Part shown: in pieces, positions 1,880-23,554 of the stretch
Layout: every line of letters starts with the position of its first letter
Numbering within the stretch: position 1 is the stretch's first letter
Assembly (NCBI GenBank): GCA_002709695.1
Contig: PAQF01000027.1
Span: forward strand, 1-35,860
Direction: 5' to 3'
Source of the DNA: Candidatus Poribacteria bacterium
Lineage (GTDB): Bacteria > Poribacteria > WGA-4E > UBA9662
DNA: 35,860 nt
Program-made: the position numbers and the translations under genes
The notes under the pieces: model-generated
Databases searched by the model: none
What the model was told of the DNA's origin: nothing
Seen by the model: only the letters and a program-made list of their open reading frames with translations

Positions 1880-2722
1880 TTGAGTAGGATATTGATCACG
1901 GGGGCAAGTGGGTTTATTGGAAAAAGTCTAAGTCAGAGTTTGGCTGAAGACCATCAAGTTATATGTATGAGCAGAAAAGATCCTGGGTTAAACCTGCCTT
2001 GGATAAAGGGAACTTTTGCTTCGTTTGAGGACTTAACCCAGGTTGACGATTACCAGATTGATATCCTTGTTCATTTGGGGGCTGTAACTGGTGGAGTAAC
2101 AGAACGTGAATGCATTTTGGTTAACGTTGAAGGAACCCGATGTTTGTTACGGTATCTAATCAACCGAGGTTGTAAGAAATATGTTTTAGCTAGTTCCATT
2201 GCCGCTGTTGGATTTCAAGATAGAAAGTTCCGACCTGTCAATTTACCCATTGCTGATGACCATCCTTGTTTGGATCGAAGCGGTTATGGTATCTCCAAGT
2301 ATTTTATGGAAGAAATTAGTAAATACTGTTATCGACAGAGCGAAGACATTGATATTATTAATTTGCGACTATCGAGTGTGTGTGTTGATAACAATATACC
2401 ACCGTTGAAAGATATCAGTCCTTTAACCGAATGGAGTCTTGGTAGTATTACGATAATGAACTTAACTGACGCTATTCGGGCATTCACTATGTCAGTAGAG
2501 AACCCTTATAAACCAGGGGTTAGAATAATGAATGCGACTGGTCCTAAAGCTTGGACTTCTGTACCTGTGGCAGAAATTTTAAGAAATTGGTGGGGAGATG
2601 ATGTTGATTTGTCTTATTTCGAGCAATCAGGAAATGAGTATGATTCAGTTTATGACGTGAGTCGCATTCAACAGGAAATTGGATTTATTGCTCTACATAC
2701 ACCCAAGATAACATCTTCATGA
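1880..2722 (+). CDS. NAD-dependent epimerase/dehydratase (extended SDR)
   Basis: The protein has 280 residues. It opens with the Rossmann motif TGASGFIG at 7-14, has a serine-containing ASSIAAVG strand at 104-111, and the catalytic Y136-x-x-x-K140 (YGISK). These are the hallmarks of extended short-chain dehydrogenases that epimerise, dehydrate or oxidise nucleotide sugars or free sugars. It is slightly short for a nucleotide-sugar epimerase (usually 300-340 residues), so the C-terminal substrate lobe is compact and the substrate is unclear. It starts with TTG behind a strong ribosome site and probably shares a transcript with the dehydrogenase upstream. Its last six bases overlap the 3' end of the convergent RND gene, leaving no room for an intergenic terminator. 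Confidence 0.82.
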   Translation: MSRILITGASGFIGKSLSQSLAEDHQVICMSRKDPGLNLPWIKGTFASFEDLTQVDDYQIDILVHLGAVTGGVTERECILVNVEGTRCLLRYLINRGCKKYVLASSIAAVGFQDRKFRPVNLPIADDHPCLDRSGYGISKYFMEEISKYCYRQSEDIDIINLRLSSVCVDNNIPPLKDISPLTEWSLGSITIMNLTDAIRAFTMSVENPYKPGVRIMNATGPKAWTSVPVAEILRNWWGDDVDLSYFEQSGNEYDSVYDVSRIQQEIGFIALHTPKITSS

Positions 2723-5700
2723 GTTTTCAGGTTTTCGCTGAAACGTATTAATGATATCAACATACACCATATATGAGCATGGGACTAAAAAAAGAATTAA
2801 TGGTGTTGCAAAGACCAACCCGTAGCCTAGCGAAAGAGCCATCGGTGCCATAAACGGATCGGTACCTCCTAGGCCATAAACAGTAGGAGTTACACCTGCT
2901 ACTGTTGTCAGCGTCGTCATTATAATAGCTCTAAACCTATTAGCACTTCCTTTTGCAACTAACTTAATTAGGTCTGCCTGAGGTGCAGCAAGTCTCAATT
3001 CGTTTAAATGGTCAACCATTACTAGGGAATCATTGACAACCACACCTGCCAGCCCAATTACTCCCAACATACCAGTGAAACTGAGAGGTGTTCCATGTAG
3101 TAGATAGGCAATGATTACTCCTAGAATGCTGAATGGGATTGCACTGATTACCAAGAATGGTTGGAGAAACGATCTGAAAAGAAGAATTAATAAAAAGTAA
3201 ATGCCTACAACAGCAATAATCATGGTAATAGCTAAACTCTGGAGTGATTGGTTCGTTTCCTCTGCTTCTCCGCCAATGAGAAGTTGCATTCCTGGCCAGT
3301 TTGATTTAATGTCAAACTGATTTATAATCTTATTGGTAGCTTCCACTGGGGTGACAGTGTTTAAGTCTACATCAGCAGTTATAATTACAGCTCGATTTCC
3401 ATTGTAATGATAGTAATCTGGTGTTCCTTTCGTTGTGATGAATTCAACAACCGTTCCAAGTTTGATCAACTCACCACGAGCATTAGGGATTAACAGATTG
3501 CGGACGGTATCCAAATTCTCAATTGCTTTGCCTTCGCAAATCACTCTGAAATCTACTTCTTCATCCTCATATCTGACTTTTGTGACAATCTCACCAGTGT
3601 AAGCTGTTCTTAAATTTAAGGCGACATCAGTTGCACTTAAGCCCAACCGGGCCAGCGCTTGGTGGTCGATGACAGCTCGAACCTGTTTTTTCTCCGATAA
3701 ATCATTTCGTTCAATGTCTCTAACACCTTTGATTTGTTCTAAATAAGCAACAATAGCATTTGAAAGCGACATCCGCATTGTGTCATTCGTTCCCACAATA
3801 CGAAGTGTTATTGGTCTTCCAACATCGGGACCTCCGGATTCAATCTTGTAACTTATTTTTTTAATTCCTGATATTAGTTTTGTTTGATTCCGAAGTTGCT
3901 CAACAATCTCAGATGCACTTCTGAGTTGCTTAGAATAAATTGGAAGATTAACTCGAATAAACGCTTGGTCCTTACCAAATGTTGGAACTAAATTATCATA
4001 TGTACCTCCAATCCTAGTCGTAAATGACTCAATCTCTCTAGGTTCTAAATCCAAAATCATTTTTTCCACTTTCTTTGTCATTTCAGTTGTTCTTTCAAGG
4101 TTACTCCCGTCAGGAAGTTCTATAATGACAAAGAATTGTTTTGCCATTTCACTTGGAAATAGAATTACATCAAGATTGTTTCTCCCCATTTGGAAAACTC
4201 CATAGAATGTAAACATAAAAAGTAGAATTAACACATATCTCCATCGGAGCAAATGAGTTAGCAAGTGTTGGTAATATTTCCTTAAGCTTTCAAACCAGAG
4301 ACTTGAAGGTGATAAAGTCTGAGAAGTTCTTTTTAAACTTGAAGATAAGTGAGATGGCAATACAACAAGAGCTTCAATTATTGAAACGATCAAAGCTAAT
4401 GAGACGGTCAAGGGGATCACATAGATAAATTTTCCCATGGTTCCTGAAACAAAAAACATAGGGGCAAAAGCACAAAGTGTGGTAGCGATAGTTGTAAGAA
4501 CGGGACGCCACACTTGGTATGTGCCTTCAATTGCAGCCTGTTCTGGGGATTTCCCATCTTGCCAGCGAGCGTAGATGCTATCTGATACGATAATGGCATC
4601 ATCCACAATGATTCCCAGAACGATGATCATGGATGTTAATGTAATTGTATCTAGAAATGAATCAAAAAAAGGTAACAGGGATATAGCTCCCATGAAAGTA
4701 AATGGGATTCCCATTGCAACCCAGATTGATAGAGTTAAATTCATGAACAAACGCAGGATTAAAATTACAAGTCCAAATCCTATGATTCCATTCCAAAGCA
4801 CAATGCTAAAACTGTTTTTGACTGTGGTTGATTCATCGTTAGCGAATAATATTTCAACGTTTTCAGGTAAAGTTTTATTGATCTCAGCGATTTTTTCCTT
4901 GATCCTATTACATACTCTTATATTATCAGCTTCTTCAGATTTTCTGATTGATAGGGCAATTGTTGGTTTGCCATTCAAGTGCGGGGTGATTTGGTTTTTC
5001 TCAAAGCCGTCTTTAATTTGAGCAATATCTTTAATTCGGGTGGCAATTCCTCCCGGAGAAGACCGGATAATTACATCAGATACTGTCATTGGAGTTTCAA
5101 ACTCCGAATGGGTAATAAGGCTGGTTTCAAACGACCCAGATTTTATGTTTCCCGCGGTTAACCGAAGGTTACGAAGCTTAATGGCATTAATTGCGTCTCG
5201 TAACGAAATGTTATATTTGTTAATAGAATTGGGATCTATTTCTACCAGAATTTCTCGGTTGAGATATCCAACACGGTCAATTTTAGCTACGCCGGGTACT
5301 TGCTCTAGATCCTTTTCTAACTGGGTTGAAATTCTTCTCAGTTCTTTATAAGGCATGTCTCCTGTTACGCCAACTTCGATGACGGGTAGGATTGATGCTT
5401 CGATTTCCGTGATTAAGGGACGTTGGGGGATTTCAGTGGGAAGGTCCGTGACACGGCCAACGGCATCTCGAATGTTTTGTTTGACCTTATCAGGTTTCTT
5501 GACATTTGGGTCGAGTGTAACACTGATGCTGGAGACATTGTCCATTGAAAGAGAAGTAATGTAATCTATTCCAGTTAGTGTCTTTAGCTCTTTTTCCAGT
5601 TTATTGGTAATACTAAGTTCTACATCTTCAGCGGAAGCGCCAGGATATTGGGTAAGAACTGTTAGTACGCCTAGATCAAATGACGGAAAAGTATCACGTT

Positions 5701-6291: not shown

Positions 6292-7308
6292 TTAGAAGAT
6301 TTTGGTTATTTCGTCAGTTTCAAAGATTGGTAATGGTTGATTATGGCCACCTCTTTTTTTAAATTGGATCCCATCGGCGGGGTTAAGCAGTTGACCAATG
6401 ATGGTAGATGGGATTTTTTGTTCTGCTAAGGCTGAAATGATTTGGTTGCTTTTGTTATGGTCAGCTGCAATCAGCAATGCGCCGGATGAAATTGCACCGA
6501 GTGGGTTTATACCGAATTCTTGACATAAATCCTCAGTTATGTCCGATATAAGAAGTTTTTCTTCCCAAATTATGGCGCCAACATTAGCTGCGTATGCTAA
6601 CTCGTGAATAGCTGTGGATACACCACCTTCTGTTGGGTCATGCATAGCATGAACGCCTCCCGTATTTATTGCAATGGATGCATCTTTCAATACTGAAATT
6701 CCAGGATTTGTTAAGTATGTTTTTGCCTGAGATATCCTATCGGAAGAAAAGTTTTTTAGTAAATCCAGCTCACGTTCACGAGCAATAATTGAGGTGGCTT
6801 CAATTCCCAATCCTTTCGTTAGGATTAAGTCATCGCCTTCTTGAGCGGATGAGGAAGTTATAAGTTTGTCTTTGGATACTTCTCCCAACATATTCCCAAC
6901 TACAATCGGTCGGTCCAATCCATGAGTGACTTCAGTGTGTCCTCCGCATAGTGAGATATTGAAATGCTGGCAAGCGGTAGTGATTTGGTTCATAATATCA
7001 CGCACAAGATCCTCAGTAGTTCTGTTTTCGGGGAGAAGTATTGTGACCTGCAACCATTTTGGTGTTGCTCCCATTGTTGCCAGATCGTTACTGTTGACGC
7101 AAACAACATACCAACCTATCTCATCAGTTGCAAAAGTAATAGGGTCTGTTTTGATAACAAGATAAGTTGAACCCAAATCAACTACTGTAGCGTCTTCACC
7201 TATTTTTGGGCCAACAACCACTGAGGGGGAGAGGCTAGATGGTTCAGGCAGGATTTGCTCTAAGAGATCGAGCCTGAGTTTTCCTAAAGGAAGTGGTGGG
7301 TTGTTCAT
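6292..7308 (-). CDS. AIR synthase-related (PurM-fold, HypE-like) protein
   Basis: This is a 338-residue protein of the PurM/SelD/HypE/ThiL superfamily of ATP-dependent enzymes. The N-terminal domain carries IGEDATVV at 36-43, the strand with NDLATMGA at 74-81, and CGGHTEVT at 121-128. The C-terminal domain has HDPTEGGVSTAIHELA, the phosphate-binding region shared with HypE. HypE proteins end in a cyanylated Cys within PRIC, whereas this one ends EITKIF with no terminal Cys, so it is not a functional HypE. It also lacks an obvious Sec/Cys N-terminal motif of SelD. The substrate is unknown. It lies 76 bases downstream of a phytanoyl dioxygenase gene and may be co-transcribed. Confidence 0.78.
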   Translation of the reverse strand: MNNPPLPLGKLRLDLLEQILPEPSSLSPSVVVGPKIGEDATVVDLGSTYLVIKTDPITFATDEIGWYVVCVNSNDLATMGATPKWLQVTILLPENRTTEDLVRDIMNQITTACQHFNISLCGGHTEVTHGLDRPIVVGNMLGEVSKDKLITSSSAQEGDDLILTKGLGIEATSIIARERELDLLKNFSSDRISQAKTYLTNPGISVLKDASIAINTGGVHAMHDPTEGGVSTAIHELAYAANVGAIIWEEKLLISDITEDLCQEFGINPLGAISSGALLIAADHNKSNQIISALAEQKIPSTIIGQLLNPADGIQFKKRGGHNQPLPIFETDEITKIF

Positions 7309-7384
7309 TGCAACGAACTTACTTTACGATTGTTTAACATATGCCAAATACAAGGGTAGTTGCAGTGATATTTTTGTTGAAAGT

Positions 7385-8206
7385 TTAGACTTGGGGAGTT
7401 CTGGGGATGAGCTTTTGAGGCCATACGATCTGACGACGTTCCGGTGTTAATCTATCCAGCAGTTCAGGCGAAGGTTGATAACCATGTCGGAAATTCCCCC
7501 AAGATGGTCCATATCGATAAACCACAGTTCGTCGTTCGCCGTCGTTGACCCTATTGGCTGAACCATGAGTACAACAATCAACGAAAAGTAGTGCGTCACC
7601 AGCTTTCATATGTATTTCGATGGCTCCTGTCATATCAGATGGGCATTTTCCTCTTGCTCCCATACTAAATTGACCAAATTCAGGATTATCAAAATTACTT
7701 TTGTGACTGCCGGGAACAATCACCGTTCCTCCATCGCCTGGTCCAATATTTGTCAAGGCAATCAAAATATTTATTTGGTTGCAGTGGAATTTTCCATTAA
7801 GGTAGCGAAATTGGCAGCGGCTGATTCCATGTCTTCCACCGTTATGCAATCCAATTCCTTCTCCAGAGTTTCGGAAATTGAGCAAATTCTCATCAATGAA
7901 CATTGGTCCATGTGTTTCATCGAATGAACCTTCTCCACCAATGAACAATCTAACTCGGTCGAACCAGGAAGGATGATCAATTAGTTCCTCAAAGGGTTCT
8001 CCGGCTTCGTAAATCTGCTGGTAGTTTAACCCATCGTTGTCTCCATAGGCATGACCATGGACGTAACCATACCACTGGCCAGGATTCAAGGGGGGGATGT
8101 TGTCCGCACAAGTGTTGAGCCTTTCCACTTCTTTTTGAGTTAGTGCTCCCTCAAGATGTATGAATCCTTGTAGGTCAAACAGATAGACGTCCATATCATT
8201 TATCAT
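7385..8206 (-). CDS. Phytanoyl-CoA dioxygenase family protein (H-x-G variant)
   Basis: This 273-residue protein looks like a member of the PhyH branch of Fe(II)/2-oxoglutarate oxygenases. The core double-stranded helix is recognised by IGPGDGGTVIVPGSHKSNF at 154-172 and the distal HGSANR at 214-219, with R225/R226 or R231 as possible 2-oxoglutarate anchors. At the usual first iron-ligand site the sequence is H121-N122-G123 rather than H-x-D, so the carboxylate ligand is missing. H126 lies close by. The product could hydroxylate a small metabolite, but the missing Asp leaves the chemistry open. AGGAAG lies 12 bases before ATG 8206, and a second ATG (M5) is possible. The start is 21 bases after the glycosidase-like gene, in the same direction. 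Confidence 0.85.
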   Translation of the reverse strand: MINDMDVYLFDLQGFIHLEGALTQKEVERLNTCADNIPPLNPGQWYGYVHGHAYGDNDGLNYQQIYEAGEPFEELIDHPSWFDRVRLFIGGEGSFDETHGPMFIDENLLNFRNSGEGIGLHNGGRHGISRCQFRYLNGKFHCNQINILIALTNIGPGDGGTVIVPGSHKSNFDNPEFGQFSMGARGKCPSDMTGAIEIHMKAGDALLFVDCCTHGSANRVNDGERRTVVYRYGPSWGNFRHGYQPSPELLDRLTPERRQIVWPQKLIPRTPQV

Positions 8207-8227
8207 AAGTTTTTGTGTCTTCCTTTA

Positions 8228-9616
8228 TCAATTAAGTAGGTTGATAGTTTCCCCACCTTCAGTTTCCCAATTGATTAGCTGTTGAATTGGGATTCGGCGC
8301 AATCCAATTGATGGTGGAATATTTCCTGATGCAGTATAGAAAATGTATCCAATTTCGTCCTTAATAACCATCCTTGGCCAACCTACCCAGTTTTGGTCGA
8401 ATTGCCCTGATGTTCCGAGGCCTGGGAGTGCTGGATTCCTCGGATAGTAATCCCATTCAATTAGATCTTTTGAACGGGCTAATCCAACTGTATCAAACCA
8501 ATAAGACTCATTGTGTCCCGGAGGTGTCCAATGATTACATCCTTCATACCATAGATACCACGTATTATTAATATAGTTTAATGATCGAGGGCGCACATGA
8601 ATCGCATCCCAGTTTCTCAAGGTCTCGGGGGAAAATACGGGGTTGCATGTGTCCGGTTTCCAATCGATCAAGTTATCACTGTAAAACAAATACCCTCTGT
8701 CTCCGGCAGTTCCACGGGCAGGATTAGGGGTGAAGCCAGCAAAAAATAGTAGGTATTGTTCGTTGTTAATGTGTACCAAATCGAATTCGTGAGCGTGGCT
8801 AAAATGTTTATAGACTGGGTTATTTGTATAATGGGTAAAGGGGCCTAGAGGCTGGTCTGCTATTGCTAAACCAAACCCGGTCCAATCAGGGAATTTTTGT
8901 GTTGCGTACATGACAGCAACTTTTCCTTCGGGAGTAATAACTGCTCCTCCAGGATATATATTATCATGAGAGTAATTTATGTCTCCTAGTTTAATAATTG
9001 GTTCTGGTTGGACTTCCCAATCGATTAAGTCTTGGCTGATTGCGACGCCAACAGACCGTTTAGCAGAACCTTCTTGGTCTCCTTGCATGCCAGCCATAAA
9101 GTACATAAAATATTCGTTATTGAACTTAAGGATTGCTCCAGGTATGGCTTGTTGTTCATAAAAACTGCCATCCGGACCATGTTGAATAACTGGTTTATTA
9201 TGTTCTGATAACCAAGGCAAGGACGTAACATTAAAATATTCGATTTTTGTATTCTCAGGAACTTCAAGGCCAATGAAAGATTCCCAAGGTTCATGATAGT
9301 TTTCCCATTCGCCTAAAGGTCCTCGAATGGCTCCAGTTTCTTGATTAACCCAAAGACGAAAGTAATTTCCTTTTCTGAGTATTTTAATTTTCCAAGGAAA
9401 GTTTCCATCAAAACTGTATTCTTTCCAAACTGACACTTGTTTCCCTAATTTCCGGGAAATGATAAACTGATTTTCTTTAATTTCAAGATAAGCCAATTTA
9501 GAAAGATCTTGGTTGGCCGAAAATAGCACCTTGTGAGAACACTTTGAATTCGATGATTCAATCTCTAAATTGATTTCATAATTACCGACGATTTTGTGAT
9601 TTTTGGTGAGTTTCAT
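8228..9616 (-). CDS. Five-bladed beta-propeller glycoside hydrolase-like protein (GH43/32/130 type)
   Basis: The protein has 462 residues. An N-terminal beta-rich domain (about 1-135) resembles a small jelly-roll. A propeller (about 140-455) follows, with repeated blade motifs such as ISQDLIDWE, YSDNLIDWKPD and ARSKDLIEWDYYPRNP, the 'S-x-D-L-x-x-W' strands typical of GH43/GH32/GH130-like folds. Candidate acidic residues are in HAHEFDLV and WDAIHVRPRS, but I cannot assign the catalytic pair. No signal peptide is seen, so it probably acts in the cytosol on short glycosides. It sits between two phytanoyl-type oxygenases (67 and 21 bases apart), suggesting one catabolic operon. No ribosome site is obvious before ATG 9616. 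Confidence 0.75.
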   Translation of the reverse strand: MKLTKNHKIVGNYEINLEIESSNSKCSHKVLFSANQDLSKLAYLEIKENQFIISRKLGKQVSVWKEYSFDGNFPWKIKILRKGNYFRLWVNQETGAIRGPLGEWENYHEPWESFIGLEVPENTKIEYFNVTSLPWLSEHNKPVIQHGPDGSFYEQQAIPGAILKFNNEYFMYFMAGMQGDQEGSAKRSVGVAISQDLIDWEVQPEPIIKLGDINYSHDNIYPGGAVITPEGKVAVMYATQKFPDWTGFGLAIADQPLGPFTHYTNNPVYKHFSHAHEFDLVHINNEQYLLFFAGFTPNPARGTAGDRGYLFYSDNLIDWKPDTCNPVFSPETLRNWDAIHVRPRSLNYINNTWYLWYEGCNHWTPPGHNESYWFDTVGLARSKDLIEWDYYPRNPALPGLGTSGQFDQNWVGWPRMVIKDEIGYIFYTASGNIPPSIGLRRIPIQQLINWETEGGETINLLN

Positions 9617-9683
9617 ATATTTATAATTAAATTAATAAAAACAATTTTTTATCTAGTAAGTAGAATTAAAACCTAAGGATGCA

Positions 9684-10535
9684 TTAATAATCAACTGGAA
9701 TCTTTCCGTACGTGCCTGCGCGGAGTTTTTGTACTAGCATACAATCTGGCTGATCTTCGGGTAAATCTTTATTGGGTCTTAGATCAATGTAGAAATCGGT
9801 ATCCATCGCTTCGCCGCGCACTAAAAAGAATGGGATTTGCCATTTCTCTGAGGTAAATCTTGTAGTGTCAGCATCCGCATAACGCATAGTATATATCTTG
9901 CGAAAATCTTGACTACGATTTGAATCGCTCCCATGAATTACGTAAGCATCATGTAAGGAGAATTCACCCGGATGAAGTTCGATATCAACAGCAGTGTCGG
10001 CGAGTTCTTTATCGACATCGACTTCCAAGGTTGTAATTGTGCTACCGTCATCTTCTTTCACGTTTACATCGAGTAGCTTGGGCTGATTAGTTCCGGGTAG
10101 GATACGCATACAACCATTCTGGCGATTCGTTTCATTAAAGGCTAACCATGCTGTGCAAAGATTATCACCCTCCACACCGTGTAACCAGTACCGTTGGTCT
10201 TGGTGCCAACCGACATGCATGCTATCCTCAGTTCCTTTGATGATAAAGTGGCTGAGGATAAGCACTAAATTGGAACCCAAGACAGACTCTACAGCATCCA
10301 GTATTTTTGGATGACGTGCTAAGCTTAACCAAGTTCTCCAATGTTGGCTACCAACGTGTGGCTCAAACATGAATTGAGGCTTTTCTCCTGGTCTCAAGCA
10401 ATCTAGCATGTTGTCCAATGTTTGTTGATATAATTCCATTTCTTTGTTGGTAAATTGTTGGCGAAAGATGCAATAGCCTTCTTGGACATACTTTGATGGA
10501 TTATCATTTGGTGTTAATTTTGTAGATGGTCTCAC
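9684..10535 (-). CDS. Phytanoyl-CoA dioxygenase family protein (canonical)
   Basis: This 283-residue Fe(II)/2-oxoglutarate oxygenase has the full facial triad: H111-x-D113 in VGWHQDQRYW and distal H201 in HDAYVIHGSDSNRS, with R206 as candidate 2-oxoglutarate anchor. The LNGCMRILPGTNQ-like segment at about 138-150 is the PhyH equivalent of the P-G-S/T-x-x strand. Homologues hydroxylate aliphatic or amine substrates, and the substrate here is not readable. The start is GTG at 10535, preceded by AGAG seven bases upstream. It is the first gene of a run of four in the same direction (oxygenase, propeller, oxygenase, AIR-synthase-like). Confidence 0.88.
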   Translation of the reverse strand: MRPSTKLTPNDNPSKYVQEGYCIFRQQFTNKEMELYQQTLDNMLDCLRPGEKPQFMFEPHVGSQHWRTWLSLARHPKILDAVESVLGSNLVLILSHFIIKGTEDSMHVGWHQDQRYWLHGVEGDNLCTAWLAFNETNRQNGCMRILPGTNQPKLLDVNVKEDDGSTITTLEVDVDKELADTAVDIELHPGEFSLHDAYVIHGSDSNRSQDFRKIYTMRYADADTTRFTSEKWQIPFFLVRGEAMDTDFYIDLRPNKDLPEDQPDCMLVQKLRAGTYGKIPVDY

Positions 10536-10971
10536 TTTTTAGCTCTTATTCATTTGATATAGAAAAGTATATGCAAGCAAGTAAAATTAAACAACGGAAA
10601 AAAGATTATTTTAGATTAGATCCTAGGTTAGGATGTCGTTATTATGAAATTAAAATGATAAGTGTTTTTTTTTCAGGTATAGCTGGTACACACATTGAGT
10701 AACCAAAGGATTGGAACCTCAACATTGTTTTGAAAGGAAAATTTTCAGAAGTTTAAATTAGGATTATGCTAGCAATTTTTCGTCTACTGGAAAGCTCTCT
10801 GGGAATCAAGCCTTCACGAATTCAGATCTTTGTGATAGAAGCATATAAAAGGGACTTGATCTTGGCAGAAAAAGGTCTCCTGTCTGTTTTTGAATCCTGC
10901 GGTTCTATTGATTAAGAAATTCGGCAACTTTAGTTCTCCCTACCTCAATTTCTTTGCGATCTACACTTATA
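10536..10971. other. Intergenic stretch, possible 49-codon ORF
   Basis: These 436 bases lie upstream of the four-gene oxygenase run and downstream of the giant LamG-HEAT gene, both on the minus strand. The best frame on + runs 10766-10915 (49 codons, beginning MLAIFRLLESSLGIKPSR), with a weak AGGAT three bases before ATG. It has no recognisable domain and may be chance. A promoter for the oxygenase run should lie here but I could not identify it with confidence. Confidence 0.35.
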
Positions 10972-13900
10972 TTAAACAAACTGAGTGTTTTCCCAATCTA
11001 CCATAGTGACGTCAATTGGGGTTTCAGAGTTATTGTTTTTGGCCTCAATATCAGCTCCATTTTCAATTAGAAGTTTCACTACTTCAAGTCGACCAAGAAA
11101 GGCTGCTGCATGTAAGGCTGTACCTCCATCCCCTCCTTTGGAATTGACACTGGCACCTTTTTGGATCAATAGCTCAGCAACTTCATATTGACCCAGCAAA
11201 GCTGCCCAACCCAAGGGGGTTCCTCCATTATCGGATATAATGTTAACATTCACACCATTCGCTAAGTGTTGATTGACAGCTTCAATATCGCCACCTCTAA
11301 TTGCCATCCAAATACCTCCGCCACGGTTATTGTTGCCAAGAGAACGGGCAAGCCTGGTATTTATGTTTTGCAAGGCTTCTGTCGCAGCAGCACGAACCCA
11401 TGAATCTTGATCTTGTAATGCCATTGTTAGTGAAGTTACTGCATCTGCTGATCCTGTTTGTCCCAGGGCTTCTGCGGCATCAGCACGGACTTCCGGGGAT
11501 GAATTCTGCAAGGCTTGGATTAGAGATCCTTGATATTCTTTGACTGATTTAAGCGCTTCAGATGTTCCTATTTTTCTTAACGTCTCTACCACAGAAATGC
11601 GGACGAATCCAGCTTTGTCTTGCAAGGCTTGCGTTAGCGCAGGAACCGCTTGCTCTGATTTAATTTGTCCCAGGGTTTCTACTGCTGCATGACGAACGTG
11701 TGAATCTGGATCCTTCAAAGTTTGAGTCAATGCCGGGACCGCTTGCTCTGATTTAATCTGCCCTAAGGCTTCTGCGGCTGCATGACGAACGTGTGAATCT
11801 GGATCCTCCAAGGTTTCAATCAACGCAGGTACCGCGTCTTCGGATCCTTCACCTATAGAACCTAGGGCCCCTGCTGCACTACCACGAACATTTGCATCTG
11901 GGTTCTGTAAGGCTTGGATTAACGCTGGCACTGCATCCGTCCCTATATTCTCTAATGCCCAAGCTGCGGCAGCACGAACAGATTTATCCTCATCTTGTAA
12001 TGCTTGCGTTAGGGAGGGAATGGAATCTACGATATTCATTAGGTCTTCAAGGCTTAACTCAAATAATGAATCCCCTCTGGTTCCTTCCTTTATGTTTCCT
12101 AGTACTGCTGCTACGCTACTGCGAATGTTTGCATCCGGATCTTGGAGAAGAAGAATTAGAGCGGGTGTTGCATCTTTGCCTACGTTTTCTAGAGCCATAG
12201 CTGCATGACCGCGAACCCATGCATCTGGATCTTTTAAGGTTTGGATCAATGCTGGTACCACATCTTCGGATCCTCCCCCTACAGCACCTAAGGCTTCTGC
12301 GGCACTGCCACGAACATTGCTAACGTTGTCCTCCAATCTCAGGATCAGTGCAGGTACTGCGTCTTTGGCATCTTTGCCGATGTCTCTTAACGCCTTTGCT
12401 GAGGAAGCACGAACGCCTTTAACTTTGTCACCCAATGCCACGATCAGTGCTGATATGGCATCTTTGGTATCTATGGATCCGATGGTACCTAGCGCCCTTG
12501 ATGCGGCAACACGCACACCTCCAACGTTGTCCTCCAATGCCACGATCAGTGCAGGTACTGCGTCTTTAGCATCTTTGCCGATGTGACCTAAGGTCTCTGC
12601 CGCAGAAACACGCACATAAAAATGTGATTCCTGCAATTTTGGTATCAGATCGGGGACCACATCTTTTCCCATATTCCCTAATGCTTCTATCGCAGCACTT
12701 CGAACAGACTGATTTTGATCTTGTAACACTTCGACTAGGGCAGATATGGCACCTTTTGATCCCATTTGTCCTAATGTTTCTACGGTAGAAATGCGAGTGT
12801 TTGGATCTGGATCCTGTAGCATTGGGATCAGAGATTCTTGGTGTTCATTGAATGCTTTCAGTGCTTCAGGCGTACCTATACTTTCTAATGCGCCCGCTGC
12901 AGAATCACGAACATCTGGATTTTCATCCTTTAATATTTTGATGAGTTCTGGAACGGCATCTTCTCCAATGTTAATTAATGCTTCTACCACGAGACCACGG
13001 ATGTGGAAATCTTGGCCTTGAAGCAATTGTATGAGAGAAGGAATCGTGTCTTTTAATATTTTGATTACTTCAGGTGTTTTGATTTGTGATAATTCTCCCA
13101 CTGCGGAGATACGAGCATATGGATCTCTACCCTGTAAGGCTTTCATCAGAGATTTTTGGTGTTCTTCAACTGCCTTAATTGCTGCGGGGGTACCTATATT
13201 TTTTAAGGCGCTTGTTGCAGAATGATGATAACCAGCGGGAACATTAGTATTTTGTTGTATTTCTACTAGGCCTGGTATGGCGTCTTCCATTGCCTTGATT
13301 GCTTCAGGTGTGCCAATACTTTTTAGGGTTGCTACCGCAGCAACACGGACATCGTAATTCTGATCCTGAAATGCTTTGGTCAGAGCTGGAATAGCAGCTT
13401 CCGCTACTTTACCTATTCGTCCTAATGCTTCTACTGAGGAAAGACGAACATTTCCATCCGGATTCTGCAATAATTGGATAAATTTGGAGATCTCCTCAGG
13501 GTTTTCGAAATCGATTTTGGTCGGATCGAAAAATTTATAGTTACCGATCTCAATAATTGCCAAAGGTGCTTCAACGATGCTAGTATTTCCTTCAAAATCT
13601 CCATCGCTTCTATTAGTTGTAAGATCCTTCGCTGTTCCGTCATCAAAATTCCAGTAGCCAACTAACCCTTTTTCATTTCCTGTCAGGGTGGAGTTCATTG
13701 CAGCTTGGATTTCTGCTTTAGTTCTTGCTACATTCCAAATACGAACTTCGTCGATTATGCCATCAAAAGAAGCAACCGGAAAAGCTGAGTTTGCCCATCC
13801 TATACGGAAATTATCATATCCTGATACTGGAGTACCTATAGCAAGTTCTCCTACAAGACTTCCGTTAAGATAAGCACTTAATTTGTTGTTAGCTGTCACC

Positions 13901-14265
13901 GTCAAAGTCAGGAAGTACCATTTATCTAAATCAATAGAATTTGGAGGAGAATTGATTTTTTTGTCGGAAATCCCATCAGATGCTGTATAGTGAGCATAAC
14001 CTTCCTGATTTAGCCACATAGAATAGTTTCTAGCAAGAGGAAATCCACCACTATTAGTTACGATCGCAATCCACATTCCTGAGAAACTGTTCACTTTTAT
14101 TCTTGTTGAAACAGTCAAGTCTCCGGTTATATTGAGAGTTGGGGAGCTTGAACTAACATGCCCTATATCTCCTGCTAATTTCAAAGCTTTGTTTTGTGAA
14201 GAAACGATAGTTGGGCATATGAGACCAATAAGCAAAACAAAAAAGATTAGGCGTTTCATAATCAA
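10972..14265 (-). CDS. Secreted LamG - HEAT repeat - ankyrin repeat protein
   Basis: This is a 1097-residue protein. A signal peptide (residues 1-23, KRLIFFVLLIGLICPTIV core, cut near VSS/QN) directs export. A LamG/concanavalin-like domain follows at about 27-235, with the typical FDGIIDEVRIWNVARTKAEI strand. HEAT (PBS-lyase-like) repeats of about 31 residues run from about 260 to 970, with signatures like DPDAWVRGHAAMALENVG. Three ankyrin repeats close the protein (about 985-1090: GGTPLGWAALLGQYEVAELL, GGTALHAAAFLGRLEVVKLL). All parts are binding folds, with no enzyme domain. It probably binds surface glycans or host proteins. AGGAGT at 14275-14280 sits nine bases before TTG 14265, better spacing than for the ATG at 14259. 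The repeat DNA is similar enough to risk assembly errors. Confidence 0.85.
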   Translation of the reverse strand: MIMKRLIFFVLLIGLICPTIVSSQNKALKLAGDIGHVSSSSPTLNITGDLTVSTRIKVNSFSGMWIAIVTNSGGFPLARNYSMWLNQEGYAHYTASDGISDKKINSPPNSIDLDKWYFLTLTVTANNKLSAYLNGSLVGELAIGTPVSGYDNFRIGWANSAFPVASFDGIIDEVRIWNVARTKAEIQAAMNSTLTGNEKGLVGYWNFDDGTAKDLTTNRSDGDFEGNTSIVEAPLAIIEIGNYKFFDPTKIDFENPEEISKFIQLLQNPDGNVRLSSVEALGRIGKVAEAAIPALTKAFQDQNYDVRVAAVATLKSIGTPEAIKAMEDAIPGLVEIQQNTNVPAGYHHSATSALKNIGTPAAIKAVEEHQKSLMKALQGRDPYARISAVGELSQIKTPEVIKILKDTIPSLIQLLQGQDFHIRGLVVEALINIGEDAVPELIKILKDENPDVRDSAAGALESIGTPEALKAFNEHQESLIPMLQDPDPNTRISTVETLGQMGSKGAISALVEVLQDQNQSVRSAAIEALGNMGKDVVPDLIPKLQESHFYVRVSAAETLGHIGKDAKDAVPALIVALEDNVGGVRVAASRALGTIGSIDTKDAISALIVALGDKVKGVRASSAKALRDIGKDAKDAVPALILRLEDNVSNVRGSAAEALGAVGGGSEDVVPALIQTLKDPDAWVRGHAAMALENVGKDATPALILLLQDPDANIRSSVAAVLGNIKEGTRGDSLFELSLEDLMNIVDSIPSLTQALQDEDKSVRAAAAWALENIGTDAVPALIQALQNPDANVRGSAAGALGSIGEGSEDAVPALIETLEDPDSHVRHAAAEALGQIKSEQAVPALTQTLKDPDSHVRHAAVETLGQIKSEQAVPALTQALQDKAGFVRISVVETLRKIGTSEALKSVKEYQGSLIQALQNSSPEVRADAAEALGQTGSADAVTSLTMALQDQDSWVRAAATEALQNINTRLARSLGNNNRGGGIWMAIRGGDIEAVNQHLANGVNVNIISDNGGTPLGWAALLGQYEVAELLIQKGASVNSKGGDGGTALHAAAFLGRLEVVKLLIENGADIEAKNNNSETPIDVTMVDWENTQFV

Positions 14266-14274
14266 GATTTTTTT

Positions 14275-14280
14275 ACTCCT
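14275..14280 (-). promoter_or_regulatory. Ribosome binding site favouring a TTG start
   Basis: On the minus strand AGGAGT is nine bases before TTG at 14265 and fifteen before ATG at 14259. Spacing favours TTG, although both encode an intact signal peptide. Confidence 0.5.
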
Positions 14281-14519
14281 TTGGTGTAGTTTAATCTATA
14301 ACTCGATTTTTAATAGGATTAACGTGTACTTTGTACATTATATGCAAAATAAGAATAATTACAAGTATAACTGGTAATTCTAAGGGAATTTTGTTTATAG
14401 GTTCCAGTATAATAGCCTTATTAGTAGGGGATCATGATTAATATTTAAAAATCCTAAATGGGGATAGTATATAGTGAACTAGGTATTCTATTCACTCTGG
14501 TTGGAGATAAGAATCAAAT

Positions 14520-16448
14520 ATGTCAGCTCATAAAAGTAGTATCTCATCAAGAGCCGTATTTATTGGTTTGATCTGTGCTGCACTAGAGTGTTTAATTGCT
14601 CCCTATAATGACTTTGTGATTCGAAACGTATTTTTGGCTGGGGGGCATTTTCCTGTTGGGCCTTTTTTTGTTTTGGCGATTTTGATTCTGATCGGAAATT
14701 CAATCCTAAAAAAGATCCATCCGTCAGCTGTTATGACAACGTCGGAATTAGTTACCATTTGGTGCATTATGGCAGCAGCATCTGGTATTCCTTCAACTGG
14801 CATGATGCGGCATGCACTTCGCCCATTGGTAGCGTACCAATACTTCGCTACTCCGGAAAATGACTGGTTAGCACTCTTTCATCAATACATTCCAGATTGG
14901 CGGGTTGTTCGCGATGTCGGTGCAATCAAATCTTTTTATGAGGGGATTTCGGAAGGAGAGCCGGTTCCTTGGAGGGCATGGGGTATTCCGCTTGGTATAT
15001 GGACAGTTTATGTCTTGGTGCTATATTTCGTAGTGATATGCCTGTCAGCACTTTTGCGGAAACAATGGGTTGAAATCGAGCGCTGTACTTTTCCACTAAT
15101 CCAATTGCCGGTTGAAATAGCATCCCATCCATTTGGCGACCCAAAATCACTTTTTAAAAATAAAGTTCTGTGGATTGGGTTCAGTATTCCCGTTCTTATT
15201 CATACGTTAAATGGACTGCACGCTTTTTTTCCCTATTTTCCGAAATTCCCTGTCAGATACTGGCTTGACCCTCATCTGATTGGTCGTCCTTGGAGTGCAC
15301 TCAAACCGTTTCAAATCACGATTTTTTTGTCAATGGTAGGGTTCAGTTATTTGTTGGCCCTTGAGGTTTCTTTCAGCTTGTGGTTTTTCTTTTTATTTTA
15401 TAAAGCCCAATGTTTGATTGGATCGATGCTCGGTTTTCACATTGAAAAGGGGCCGGGAGTTCAATGGACAGCTTATTCTTTCAGTGCCTCTCAAGAGATT
15501 GGCGCTTGTGCAACTTTTATCATATACACTTTATGGAAATCCAAACATCACTTCAAAAGTATACTTCAAAGTTTAATGAGGACAGATTCAAACATGGATG
15601 ATGAATCTGCATCTCTCCGGTGGGGAGCTTGTGGTTTACTGGGAGGTGTATTAACCCTCGTTTTTCTTAATCATATAATGGGTATGTCTCTTGGGTTTTC
15701 CTTCATATTTGTTTTTGTTTTGTTAGGGATTTATATTGGGTTGACGTGGCAAGTAATTCATGGCGGAATTCCTTTCGTTAATCCATCGTATTCAGCCCAC
15801 TATGTGCTTTTTACTACTATGGGGTCAAAAAGAATCACTCCTTCGACTATGACATCTCTCTTTATGCACCCAGTTTCTTTAACACGTGATCTACGTGAAA
15901 TTATGATGCCCTATGTAATGAATGGACTTAAAGCGGCGGACGAAGTCAAAGTTAAACGGCGAGGGATGTTACTTGGCATGGGAAGTGCTATGGTGATTGG
16001 CCTGATTGTATCTTGCTACTCAACCTTGAAAATTAGTTATCAGTATCGAGCACCCTACACGGGAGGGGCTGGTGACATGCGGTGGTTGACCTCCATATTA
16101 GTTGGAACCGACAGTGGTACAGACTGGATTAATACCGGTTTTATGATATTTGGTAGTATATTTATGGGGGGGTTGATGTTGTTACGGCGCTTCTTTATTT
16201 GGTGGCCTATACATCCGATTGGTTACACTATGTTGAGTTCTTGGGCTTCTTTCAAGCTTTGGTTCTCAATTTTCTTGGGTTGGATGGTGAAGTATGGTCT
16301 TGTTAAATATGGAGGCTTGCGTGCGTATCGTCAAGCGCGACCTATATTTCTTGGGTTGGTTTTGGGTGAAATGATCTGTGCTGGAATTTGGGCTATCATT
16401 GGGATGGCTACTGGTGTTAGTACTGGGTATAGGATTCTCTTGGACTAA
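14520..16448 (+). CDS. DUF6785/DUF6784-type polytopic membrane protein (copy A)
   Basis: This 642-residue integral membrane protein has about 12-14 hydrophobic helices spread along its length. Marker segments shared with the copy at 26989-28908 are FATPENDWLALFHQYIPDW (about 109-127), LRKQWVEIERCTFPLIQLP (about 179-197), WWPIHPIGYTMLSSW near 560, and a final glycine-rich helix (FLGLVLGEMICAGIW). These match what I know as the DUF6785/DUF6784 family of uncharacterised proteins, loosely OPT-transporter-like. Transport of a small solute or peptide is a guess. It is alone on its strand, divergent from the LamG-HEAT gene across a 254-bp spacer. GGAG at 14503-14506 is 13 bases before ATG. Confidence 0.75.
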   Translation: MSAHKSSISSRAVFIGLICAALECLIAPYNDFVIRNVFLAGGHFPVGPFFVLAILILIGNSILKKIHPSAVMTTSELVTIWCIMAAASGIPSTGMMRHALRPLVAYQYFATPENDWLALFHQYIPDWRVVRDVGAIKSFYEGISEGEPVPWRAWGIPLGIWTVYVLVLYFVVICLSALLRKQWVEIERCTFPLIQLPVEIASHPFGDPKSLFKNKVLWIGFSIPVLIHTLNGLHAFFPYFPKFPVRYWLDPHLIGRPWSALKPFQITIFLSMVGFSYLLALEVSFSLWFFFLFYKAQCLIGSMLGFHIEKGPGVQWTAYSFSASQEIGACATFIIYTLWKSKHHFKSILQSLMRTDSNMDDESASLRWGACGLLGGVLTLVFLNHIMGMSLGFSFIFVFVLLGIYIGLTWQVIHGGIPFVNPSYSAHYVLFTTMGSKRITPSTMTSLFMHPVSLTRDLREIMMPYVMNGLKAADEVKVKRRGMLLGMGSAMVIGLIVSCYSTLKISYQYRAPYTGGAGDMRWLTSILVGTDSGTDWINTGFMIFGSIFMGGLMLLRRFFIWWPIHPIGYTMLSSWASFKLWFSIFLGWMVKYGLVKYGGLRAYRQARPIFLGLVLGEMICAGIWAIIGMATGVSTGYRILLD

Positions 16449-16452
16449 GTTG

Positions 16453-19704: not shown

Positions 19705-21042
19705 ATGGATCAAATAAACAAGACGCATAAAATTGAACATCACACTGTCATTATTGTAGGTGGAGGACCAGCTGGACTTCCTATCGCTGCAGTTCTTGGA
19801 GGATGGCATCCCTACTATCGGGAAAGCGCTATTTTTAGCCAGCGTTATCCCGAACTTGCTGCTTATTTGAGTCCATACAGATCAACTTTGCTAGGGCTAG
19901 ATTTCGCCAAACTGGGGGATAATGGTATTCCACCAATTGATCTATTCCATCTACTACACCATCCCAGAAGGATTTTCCAAGAATTATCTCAGATCGCATT
20001 AGAATTTAGACAAGAAGATCCTATAGATTACCTTCTTATTACTCAGGAAGAGGTTGGTGGTCTTTGGAACAACGCTCCGGAAAATTTATTAACTTTATCG
20101 CCGGGACAGTGGATGGAATTTGCATTTTTTCCATTAGCCCAATACATCCAAGAACAATCTGTCAATCTTAGTGTCAACGATTTGATCTGTAAAAGAGATT
20201 TGATCCGTTACTATCATCAAATACCTGGGCGATTTGACCTAGTTAATCATATTCATACACACGAGAAAATTGTACGGATAGAACCACATGAACGGGGATT
20301 TCATTTAACAAGTCGAGATGTTGGTACCCAGACAATGCATCAGTATACTTGCAAATACCTGGTTTATGCTGTTGGCCAACGCTGTATTCTGAGAAAGCTC
20401 GATGTACCTGGTGAGGACTTACCATTTGTCGTGAACCGTTATGATCGGCCAGAGAGTTTTGACGGTGATCGCATTGTTGTTGTTGGAGGTGGCCGATCAG
20501 CGGATTGGGCAGCAACGGAACTTTACGATGCTCAGAAAGAAGTTTACTACGTCATGCGCCAATCGTTTGAGCGTCATTGGCGGCTTATCAACGATAGTCG
20601 TGATGGCTTGCCTTACTATGCACGTATTGCTGAAATCATTGAAAGCCGGGATCCACGATTTCAAACGCTTTATAATAGCCATATTCAAAAGATTGAAGAC
20701 AAACCAAAGAATGGTTTAGTGACGGTGAATAACAATGGTCATCAAAAATTGATAGATGTCGATCATGTGGTGATAGAAATTGGAGGAACCGCTGATTATT
20801 CTCTGTTCAATGGGTTTCCTGCTTTAAGATTTAAAGAAAAATATGATAGCTACCGTTTTCAAGTGCACCAAGTCGAAACGAAACCTTATAGTTCCGAAGT
20901 TACCAACATTCCGAATCTCTATATGGGCGGTTACTTAGCAGAAGGCCTTGGATTGGTGGTTATTGCCATGCATCCAACAACTTATACAATTGCGGCTGAT
21001 ATTTTGCAAAAAGAAGGAATCTATAACAGACAAAACCCCTGA
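19705..21042 (+). CDS. OSGIN-like FAD/NAD(P)-binding oxidoreductase
   Basis: The protein has 445 residues from ATG 19705. An upstream TTG at 19666 would add 13 residues, and neither start has a clear ribosome site. The FAD-binding motif VIIVGGGPAGLPIAA sits near the N-terminus, and a second Rossmann motif VVVGGGRSADWAATE near residue 260 binds NAD(P)H. The segments GGWHPYY, LSPGQWMEF and LICKRDLIRYYH resemble the vertebrate OSGIN (oxidative-stress-induced growth inhibitor) family of flavin monooxygenase-like proteins. A monooxygenase or reductase acting on a small hydrophobic substrate is likely. The secreted HEAT/TPR gene starts 40 bases after its stop, so they may share a transcript. Confidence 0.78.
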   Translation: MDQINKTHKIEHHTVIIVGGGPAGLPIAAVLGGWHPYYRESAIFSQRYPELAAYLSPYRSTLLGLDFAKLGDNGIPPIDLFHLLHHPRRIFQELSQIALEFRQEDPIDYLLITQEEVGGLWNNAPENLLTLSPGQWMEFAFFPLAQYIQEQSVNLSVNDLICKRDLIRYYHQIPGRFDLVNHIHTHEKIVRIEPHERGFHLTSRDVGTQTMHQYTCKYLVYAVGQRCILRKLDVPGEDLPFVVNRYDRPESFDGDRIVVVGGGRSADWAATELYDAQKEVYYVMRQSFERHWRLINDSRDGLPYYARIAEIIESRDPRFQTLYNSHIQKIEDKPKNGLVTVNNNGHQKLIDVDHVVIEIGGTADYSLFNGFPALRFKEKYDSYRFQVHQVETKPYSSEVTNIPNLYMGGYLAEGLGLVVIAMHPTTYTIAADILQKEGIYNRQNP

Positions 21043-21082
21043 ATACTATAGAATAAAGTTATTTATCATCAACGGAAAGAAA

Positions 21083-23554
21083 ATGCAGATAAAAATGCAG
21101 ATTGCCATCTTTACCTTTATTGCAATGCTAGGGTATTCTAGCGTTACAACTGCACAGGAACAAATTGACCAAACTTCTGACCTGAATAGCATTCTAAAAT
21201 TAGCTGAAATAGGGGATAAACGTGCTGTTCAACTATTAATCGCTATCATCAAAGATAAAGATAAAAATGGTTATGTTCGAAAGCAAGCTGCTACTGCTTT
21301 GACAAAGCTAGGCTCTCCTGCTATTGACTCGTTGATTAATACTCTCAACACGGACGATCCTATCATACGTCGTCTGGCGGTTGAAGCTCTGGGAAACATG
21401 CAGAACAAACGGATTGTTGATCCGTTAATTAAAGTTTTAGTGGATCAGGATATCCGTATTCGCCGCTTGGCAGTTGATGCCTTGGCTGCATCTGGTGACA
21501 CACGTGTCCTAAAACCGTTGATCAATATCTTGCATAACAAGGAAGAGAAAAGCTCACTTCGTCGAAGAGTAGTTACTGCACTGGTACAGTTGGATAACAA
21601 ACGGGCAATTAAACCTTTAATTATGGTTTTGGTTGATGATGATGCCCAGGTCCGCAATATAGCAATAGACATGCTGGGACAATCAGGTGATGAGCGGGCA
21701 GTTACCCCATTAATTGCTACTTTAGAAAGCCAAAACCATCTCACGCGATCCTATGCGGTAAAAGCTTTAGCACAACTTGGTGATGTACGGGCAATTAAAC
21801 CGATCATAGATAGGATAACTGATGAAAATGATCTTGTGCGTTCAAATGCCGCGAAAGCTATGATGCAATTCGGTGATGTACGTGGGGTAGAGCCGCTAAT
21901 AGTTGCGCTTAAGGATAGGAACAGCTTGGTTCAATCTCATGCAGCTTTAGCCTTGGGATACTTGGGTGATCATCGCGCTGTCGAACCGTTGATTGAGGCT
22001 TTTGATCAAGGAGAGAACAATGTTCAGTCTAATATCATTCGATCTTTAGTACAACTTGGTGATATTCGTGCAATTGATTCATTGATCAAAATACTCGAAG
22101 ATGAGTCAATAGATGCTTATGTTCGGGGACTTACAGCCGGAGCATTGGCTCAATTCGATGATAGCCGAGTGACGGAACCGCTGATTGAGGCGTTACATAA
22201 CCAGAATCATCTTGTCCGATCCGACGCAGCTAAAGCTCTAGGACAGCTTGGTGTTCAAGTTGCTCTTAAACCGTTGATTGCTGCACTTGAAGATGCCGAG
22301 GGGATTGTCCGATCCAATGCTGCAACTGCACTAGCTCAATTTGGTCAATCGGCTGTCGAGCCATTGCTGGCCATAATCCAAAACAGGAATAAGGATAGTT
22401 TTACTCGTGGTTTAGCAGCTAATACATTAGGCGAACTGGGTGATAGAAAAGCAACCAATTCACTGATTGTTGCCTTAACGGATGAGGAGCCGAATGTTCG
22501 TTATGAAGCTGCCCTTGCTTTAAGGTTACTTGGTGATGACCGAGCTTTGTCTGCGTTGGTGACAACCCTTTCTGATGACGAAAAGCAAGTTCACTATGCA
22601 GCTGCTTTTGCTTTAGGTCGTCTGGGTGATGTGCGAGCAATCGAGCCACTAATTGAGGCTCTTTCGGATCAGGATGAGAGACTGCGTCGATTGGCGGCTG
22701 GTGCGTTAGCAGAACTTGGTGACAAAAAGGCGATCGAGCCACTAATTGAGGCTCTTTCGGACCCGGATGAAGGTCTCCGCCGATTGGTGGTTAGTGCCTT
22801 GGGGCAACTTGGTGACAAAAAAGCGATCGAGCCATTGTTTGCCGCCTTGTCAGATGAAGATGCTGGTGTTCGCCTTTACGCAGCGTTAGCTTTGGGGCAG
22901 CTGGGTGACAAACGTATGGTGGAACCGTTATTGGTTGCATTGATGGATAAAGATGAGCGTGTCCGACGATTAGCTGCTTTTGCTCTAGGTAGATTTGGAG
23001 ATGATAACAAGGTATTGGAGTCGCTAATCTCAGCATTGAGAGACAAAGATTGGAAGGTGCGGGGTGTAGTAGCGTTTGTCTTAGGACAAATTGGTGATGT
23101 CCGGTCAATTGCTGAACTGGAACGTGTGGTCAATGAGGAACAGAACGAGAATGTGCAAAATACGGCAACTGTCAGCTTAAACCATGTTAAAGCTAAGAAT
23201 TTTGCCAGCTTAGGGATGAAATTAGCTGAAGCAGAACTGTTGGCAGAGGACATAGTCAGACGCGAACCGGATAATGTTGTTTTCTATGATACGCTGGGTT
23301 GGGTACGTTACAAACAAAGAAAGTATATAGATGCTGTTACTGTCTTGGAAGAAGCAACCAAACTGCAAAAAGGGGTTGCCGCTGTACACTATCATTTGGG
23401 CCTGGCTTATCTTCAAACACAACAAATAGAAAAGGGATTGGCACAACTTGAAATGGCTTTCTCTTTGGAAGGCAGGTTTCGGGAAGCAGCAAAATCGGAA
23501 GACTTAGGAAGTATACGAAAAATCCCGGAATTTCAGCAATTGGTGAACAGATAG
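21083..23554 (+). CDS. Secreted HEAT repeat protein with C-terminal TPRs
   Basis: This is an 823-residue protein from ATG 21083, with GGAAAG at 21074-21079 just upstream. The same frame is open back to 20948 inside the flavoprotein gene, but ATG 21083 gives a clean signal peptide (MQIAIFTFIAMLGYSS, cut near TTAQ). About 20 HEAT/PBS-lyase repeats of 31-33 residues follow (pattern RAVEPLIEAL..D...VR..AA.ALG.LGD) to about residue 700. Two or three TPR-like helices close it (VFYDTLGWVRYKQRKYIDAV; AAVHYHLGLAYLQTQQIEKG). It is a periplasmic or surface scaffold with no catalytic domain. Some repeat units are nearly identical in DNA (about 22640-22675 versus 22730-22765). Confidence 0.83.
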   Translation: MQIKMQIAIFTFIAMLGYSSVTTAQEQIDQTSDLNSILKLAEIGDKRAVQLLIAIIKDKDKNGYVRKQAATALTKLGSPAIDSLINTLNTDDPIIRRLAVEALGNMQNKRIVDPLIKVLVDQDIRIRRLAVDALAASGDTRVLKPLINILHNKEEKSSLRRRVVTALVQLDNKRAIKPLIMVLVDDDAQVRNIAIDMLGQSGDERAVTPLIATLESQNHLTRSYAVKALAQLGDVRAIKPIIDRITDENDLVRSNAAKAMMQFGDVRGVEPLIVALKDRNSLVQSHAALALGYLGDHRAVEPLIEAFDQGENNVQSNIIRSLVQLGDIRAIDSLIKILEDESIDAYVRGLTAGALAQFDDSRVTEPLIEALHNQNHLVRSDAAKALGQLGVQVALKPLIAALEDAEGIVRSNAATALAQFGQSAVEPLLAIIQNRNKDSFTRGLAANTLGELGDRKATNSLIVALTDEEPNVRYEAALALRLLGDDRALSALVTTLSDDEKQVHYAAAFALGRLGDVRAIEPLIEALSDQDERLRRLAAGALAELGDKKAIEPLIEALSDPDEGLRRLVVSALGQLGDKKAIEPLFAALSDEDAGVRLYAALALGQLGDKRMVEPLLVALMDKDERVRRLAAFALGRFGDDNKVLESLISALRDKDWKVRGVVAFVLGQIGDVRSIAELERVVNEEQNENVQNTATVSLNHVKAKNFASLGMKLAEAELLAEDIVRREPDNVVFYDTLGWVRYKQRKYIDAVTVLEEATKLQKGVAAVHYHLGLAYLQTQQIEKGLAQLEMAFSLEGRFREAAKSEDLGSIRKIPEFQQLVNR

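Follow-up and report, generated by a model that had tools for sequence, protein, structure and literature searches.

The window described here, 35,860 nucleotides in length, is the entire contig C27 (PAQF01000027.1) of a draft genome (G000) of Candidatus Poribacteria bacterium, GCA_002709695.1, which comprises 5.2 Mb in 87 contigs (96.15% complete, 2.91% contamination). On its minus strand, at 10972..14265, is an open reading frame (ORF) that encodes a LamG domain, a long HEAT repeat array and three ankyrin (Ank) repeats in one chain. The C-terminal Ank module has relatives in CotH-kinase-type proteins and has lost part of its tail, and the gene sits in a block that the sister genome G001 lacks in its collinear interval. 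It is fairly probable that the product is an exported scaffold or adhesin specific to this lineage, with no detected enzymatic domain, which arose when modules common in Poribacteria recombined. Sec export would deliver it to the periplasm or cell surface, where LamG could bind a ligand, either a glycan or a protein. The HEAT solenoid would serve both as a long spacer and as a protein-binding surface, and the Ank repeats, common to exported CotH-kinase-type proteins, may bind a protein partner. The gene illustrates clearly one way in which Poribacteria can acquire large exported repeat proteins, with a module mostly seen on CotH-type proteins joined here to LamG and HEAT at a locus that varies.

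Domain content and predicted export

The ORF has 1097 codons from the listed TTG start at 14265 and 1095 from an in-frame ATG two codons further in, at 14259; an AGGAG lies upstream. The encoded protein has 1,095 residues (116 kDa). When the bases of the ORF were shuffled 1000 times, every shuffle contained stops. The protein had been called giant, a size that is not exceptional here, since LamG matches occur in open frames of more than 3,000 residues in several relatives.

All three kinds of domain, called in Pfam against curated cut-offs, lie on the minus strand. The LamG domain (Laminin_G_3, a ConA-like beta-sandwich) covers residues 35-187 (13705..14163) and scores 77.6 bits against a cut-off of 27.6; strands are present at this position in the AlphaFold2 model, and the solved chains 4dqa and 3flp are weak sequence matches. 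The HEAT array extends over residues 257-970 (11356..13497), as seen with Pfam, a purpose-built HEAT profile and the model. HEAT_2 scores 428 bits against a cut-off of 27.7 in 11 stretches. The purpose-built profile finds 21 stretches, 20 of them near full length. The 20 regular units are 30 residues long, have two invariant residues (Arg 18 and Leu 25 of the unit) and are accompanied by diverged ones. The more than 20 HEAT repeats proposed in the sequence-only reading thus hold as about 20 to 21 units plus diverged helices, the 21st profile stretch being a fragment. The three Ank repeats occupy residues 986-1078 (11032..11310), where Ank_2 scores 69.5 bits at residues 986-1077 (cut-off 27.3) and most conserved columns of the wider module are shared.

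The AlphaFold2 model has a mean predicted local distance difference test (pLDDT) score of 79.8 and a predicted template modelling score of 0.52; pLDDT falls below 50 at 124 of the 1095 residues, many of them within LamG. Its order (N-terminal helix, beta strands, long alpha-solenoid, ankyrin helices) agrees with the Pfam calls, and the presence of LamG, HEAT and Ank in one chain, as first read from the letters, is confirmed. With the whole model as query, Foldseek returned solenoid proteins, among them karyopherins, CAND1, SF3B and PP2A, with template modelling scores by query length of at most 0.39 among the 50 matches listed.

No enzymatic or catalytic domain was detected in the ORF with Pfam. 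The solved sequences in the PDB nearest to the HEAT array are mostly alphaRep-type artificial HEAT-like repeats, which are designed proteins. LamG and Ank are binding modules. Together, these three features lead to the scaffold or adhesin reading. An enzyme of the PBS/phycobilin lyase HEAT type was considered and rejected on NCBIfam equivalog scores (CpcE, 183.8 against a cut-off of 330; NblB, 150.7 against 300); the only family above its NCBIfam cut-off is a HEAT-type domain, DVU0298_fam (130.4 against 75). Among 50,697 phage records, 14 match, and no single place covers 80% of the query. A promoter and terminator scan gave 7 and 2 sites, respectively, both below the averages for shuffled sequence (10.0 and 3.7).

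The N-terminus reads MKR followed by a mostly hydrophobic stretch. A Sec signal peptide of about 22 residues is predicted at 14194..14259 (minus strand) from hydropathy, a model helix at residues 2-19 and similar N-termini in two LamG relatives (L082 and L083); the cleavage site and the absence of a lipobox were judged by eye. No second membrane-like stretch is present, the mean hydropathy over 19 residues never exceeding 1.6 elsewhere in the protein. The protein thus probably carries a Sec-type signal peptide and is exported, and at the level of hydropathy and the N-terminal model helix the earlier proposal of export stands.

The ankyrin module and other relatives

The 127-residue C-terminus was used as a query against 84 Poribacteria genomes (E<=1e-3). 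It has matches in 81 of them, G060, G061 and G069 giving none at that threshold; the best E value is <=1e-20 in 70 of the 84, the window's own genome included. The weak matches may be ordinary ankyrins. For linkage to CotH, the best locus was taken from 30 genomes, that is, the window and 29 others (L027 and L126-L153). In all 29, a CotH domain lies upstream in the same frame as the Ank module (28 directly; in L127, where the CotH part is cut off, by way of L085, which is the same gene), and HEAT is found in the frame of the module in none of these 29. Pfam confirmed CotH plus Ank in the five ORFs scanned (L082, L085, L087, L132, L141). In the window's own genome the CotH kinase family PF08757 has 17 matches, none on C27. 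Among the Ank-side matches listed, none but the window itself starts before residue 953, so that no listed relative extends into the HEAT array.

The poribacterial CotH-Ank proteins, e.g., L087, L132 and L141, thus carry the same Ank module, and the window's copy is 58-60% identical to the modules of G002 C443 and G001 C278. Like the window protein, L087 has a signal-peptide-like N-terminus. In contrast to these proteins, the window protein is without a CotH domain, has a single module where they have several, and has a shortened tail. Across the 30 relatives, 41 module columns are at least 80% conserved; the window agrees at 33 of them, differs at 4 and is gapped at the remaining 4, which belong to the lost tail. 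A protein of the CotH-kinase type ending in ankyrin modules (e.g., L132:463-3171) was seen in all 29 other genomes for which a best locus was returned; a kinase-like ankyrin protein so widespread across the phylum may merit separate study. Among the literature matches listed for CotH kinase with ankyrin, no paper names 'CotH kinase'. A broken CotH gene stands at a contig end in G000 C49 (L104:144-1143) and by eye resembles the N-terminal part of the G001 CotH-Ank gene.

The shortening of the tail can be followed in the DNA. In an alignment with two CotH-Ank genes, homology runs beyond the stop of the window gene; a small deletion just before the stop shifts the frame, and the last conserved segment of the module is left out of frame past the stop as a remnant at 10908..10967 (minus strand). 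The three Ank repeats are kept and the conserved tail is lost. A module of the CotH-Ank kind is thus present here and was later clipped; the direction of its transfer is inferred. One possibility, very unlikely, is that the chain serves the phylum's exported CotH-Ank protein as an adaptor or decoy, the same Ank module on a LamG-HEAT scaffold holding or competing for the same surface partner. If true, a single lineage would have rewired a pathway of extracellular phosphorylation through module sharing.

The other domains also have wide distributions. LamG query matches occur in 83 of the 84 genomes. The LamG loci carry at most 1,500 bases of flank, and long frames are therefore seen only in part; in the 29 top non-window LamG loci, the frame as far as seen has HEAT in none and CotH in one. 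A Pfam scan of eight of these loci (1e-5) found TPR in six, propeller repeat plus carboxypeptidase-regulatory-type domains in one, and nothing else in one. In relatives, LamG is set inside TPR arrays at L156, L157, L163, L169, L174 and L180, the open frame of L156 being 3,196 residues long. A further permutation is suggested at L106:1836-2162 (G001 C393), where a LamG fragment is followed by what by eye resembles the start of a WD40 repeat.

A survey of architectures covered 183 loci on both strands (1,638 frames of at least 100 residues) and recovered the window locus, L001, with 19 HEAT units, LamG and Ank. The triple of LamG, HEAT and Ank was found in the window only, which upholds the view that the combination is unusual. 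LamG with HEAT and without Ank occurs in two proteins, from G000 C53 (593 residues) and the sister G001 C182 (620 residues). As in the window protein, LamG is followed by HEAT units; unlike it, they have no Ank, a shorter array and another locus. With its predicted signal peptide, LamG and HEAT array, the window protein has the makeup of an exported LamG-HEAT protein of this genus. The C53 and C182 genes have a common neighbourhood (genes presumably of the pyrimidine-synthesis and oxidoreductase types), while the window gene has a PhyH gene on one side and a DUF6785 gene on the other.

The two ends of the chimera also co-occur around a different middle. L082 of G002 (2065-5148; 1028 residues) has a signal-peptide-like start, an N-terminal LamG and a C-terminal Ank, as does the window protein, but its middle is a CotH region (with a Cohesin match below cut-off) where the window protein has the HEAT array. 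At G001 L083:1924-4349, a LamG-cohesin part and a CotH part are encoded separately, in neighbouring ORFs that do not share a frame. The best-scoring HEAT arrays outside the window are in lipoprotein-like genes of G002 C497 and G000 C69, with 48% and 47% identity in their top stretches. Unlike the window protein, these have a Cys after the hydrophobic N-terminus (by eye), no LamG and no Ank. Among the papers listed in literature searches, none combines ankyrin, 'HEAT repeat' and LamG. The exact combination looks unusual, but each of its blocks is ordinary material in Poribacteria.

A variable block in a conserved neighbourhood

Window positions 6294-10613 and 14502-16452 align collinearly with contig C119 of G001, a genome of the same genus, at 79-87% DNA identity, which places the contig in this lineage. 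Between them is a 3.9 kb block (10614..14501) that contains the fusion gene and does not match the corresponding part of C119 at the DNA level; with the fusion protein as query, tblastn gave no match there at E<=1. The conserved neighbours are a PhyH gene on the left (9684..10535, minus strand; 79% DNA identity to G001) and a DUF6785/DUF6784 gene on the right (14520..16448, plus strand; 87%). Unlike the fusion gene, a second HEAT gene in the window (20948-23554) is part of a region that aligns collinearly with G001 (83%). No flanking repeats stand out at the block ends, the longest exact match being 9 bases (E 0.68). G+C content at third codon positions (GC3) is even within the fusion gene (LamG 0.292, HEAT 0.324, whole 0.320).

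These alignments bear on the highly improbable case of an assembly artefact that fused two or three genes. A draft genome of so many contigs and such contamination, in which HEAT and Ank genes are numerous and alike, offers material for such an error; however, the reading frame continues through both joins on a single strand, and both flanks fit the sister genome. Collapse of the HEAT repeats is unlikely, because the tandem units found by Tandem Repeats Finder are only 72-83% alike at the DNA level.

Several observations weigh against the scaffold or adhesin reading. The LamG domain is only 35-40% identical to CotH-linked LamG domains. An Ank gene without CotH, with four module copies and adjoining a CotH gene, is present in the window's own genome (C6, L075), and an Ank frame without visible CotH, cut by the contig end, occurs in G002 C90 (L086); the donor was therefore not necessarily of the CotH-Ank type. 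The GC3 of the fusion gene is somewhat below that of the measured neighbours (0.36-0.41), which may point to a foreign origin. Export is a prediction from sequence, and with a single example known, selection is not measurable.

The frame-shifted tail may moreover indicate decay, the chain being a recombination product without selected function on its way to being lost. This is unlikely. In its favour, the gene is seen in one genome only, in a variable block and with a frame-shifted 3' end, and the corresponding G001 interval, which also has a different PhyH-type gene (23.6% identical to that of the window), contains a LamG-like frame broken by a stop (by eye) and a 27-residue DUF6785 remnant. 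Against this, 1,095 codons are open, an AGGAG lies upstream, the predicted signal peptide is kept, and most of the conserved module columns are shared.

The host question

The sequence-only reading had taken exported ankyrins as typical of symbionts that act on eukaryotic hosts. In such a role the protein would be a symbiosis factor whose ankyrins act on a eukaryotic host such as a sponge, for example against phagocytosis, with LamG binding host glycans. This is distinctly unlikely, and the step from exported ankyrin to host action is not supported, since the module is common to CotH-Ank proteins across the phylum and matches nearly all of the Poribacteria genomes searched. Parts of PMC3909097 describe repeat proteins as abundant in Poribacteria, many with signal peptides or membrane helices, and state that some may act inside the cell, which also speaks against host action; the main text of that paper mentions neither LamG nor HEAT. 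Free-living lineages are included in Poribacteria according to passages of PMC8546597 and PMC10367259. A same-order relative, G019, is by an inferred link the metagenome-assembled genome KW1-S08_28, from deep-sea nodule sediment (as given in part of PMC10367259). It matches the Ank module weakly (best E 2.5e-7), a match that neither shows nor excludes a link of the module to life with a host. The ankyrin here is part of the general protein toolkit of the phylum, a caution against equating 'exported ankyrin' with 'host effector'.

Searches for secretion systems lend the host role no specific support. With one marker per system in a genome that is 96% complete, neither a VirB4-type type IV nor a VipB-type type VI secretion system was matched, 1 of 14 control genomes being positive in each search. 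FHIPEP/FlhA-type matches number three, and two of these are flagellar, in clusters with FlhF and FliA/WhiG-type genes; the second of the two scores 764.8 against an FlhA cut-off of 772.1, yet above SctV. The third has an internal stop.

The two flagellar export clusters (FlhA, FlhF and FliA/WhiG types) are separate within the one genome (L184 on C73 and L185 on C26), and the broken third FHIPEP match is on C34. Elsewhere in the window, at 34156-34553, a TPR gene contains a 102-base tandem repeat whose last copies are 97% alike, probably a recent expansion.
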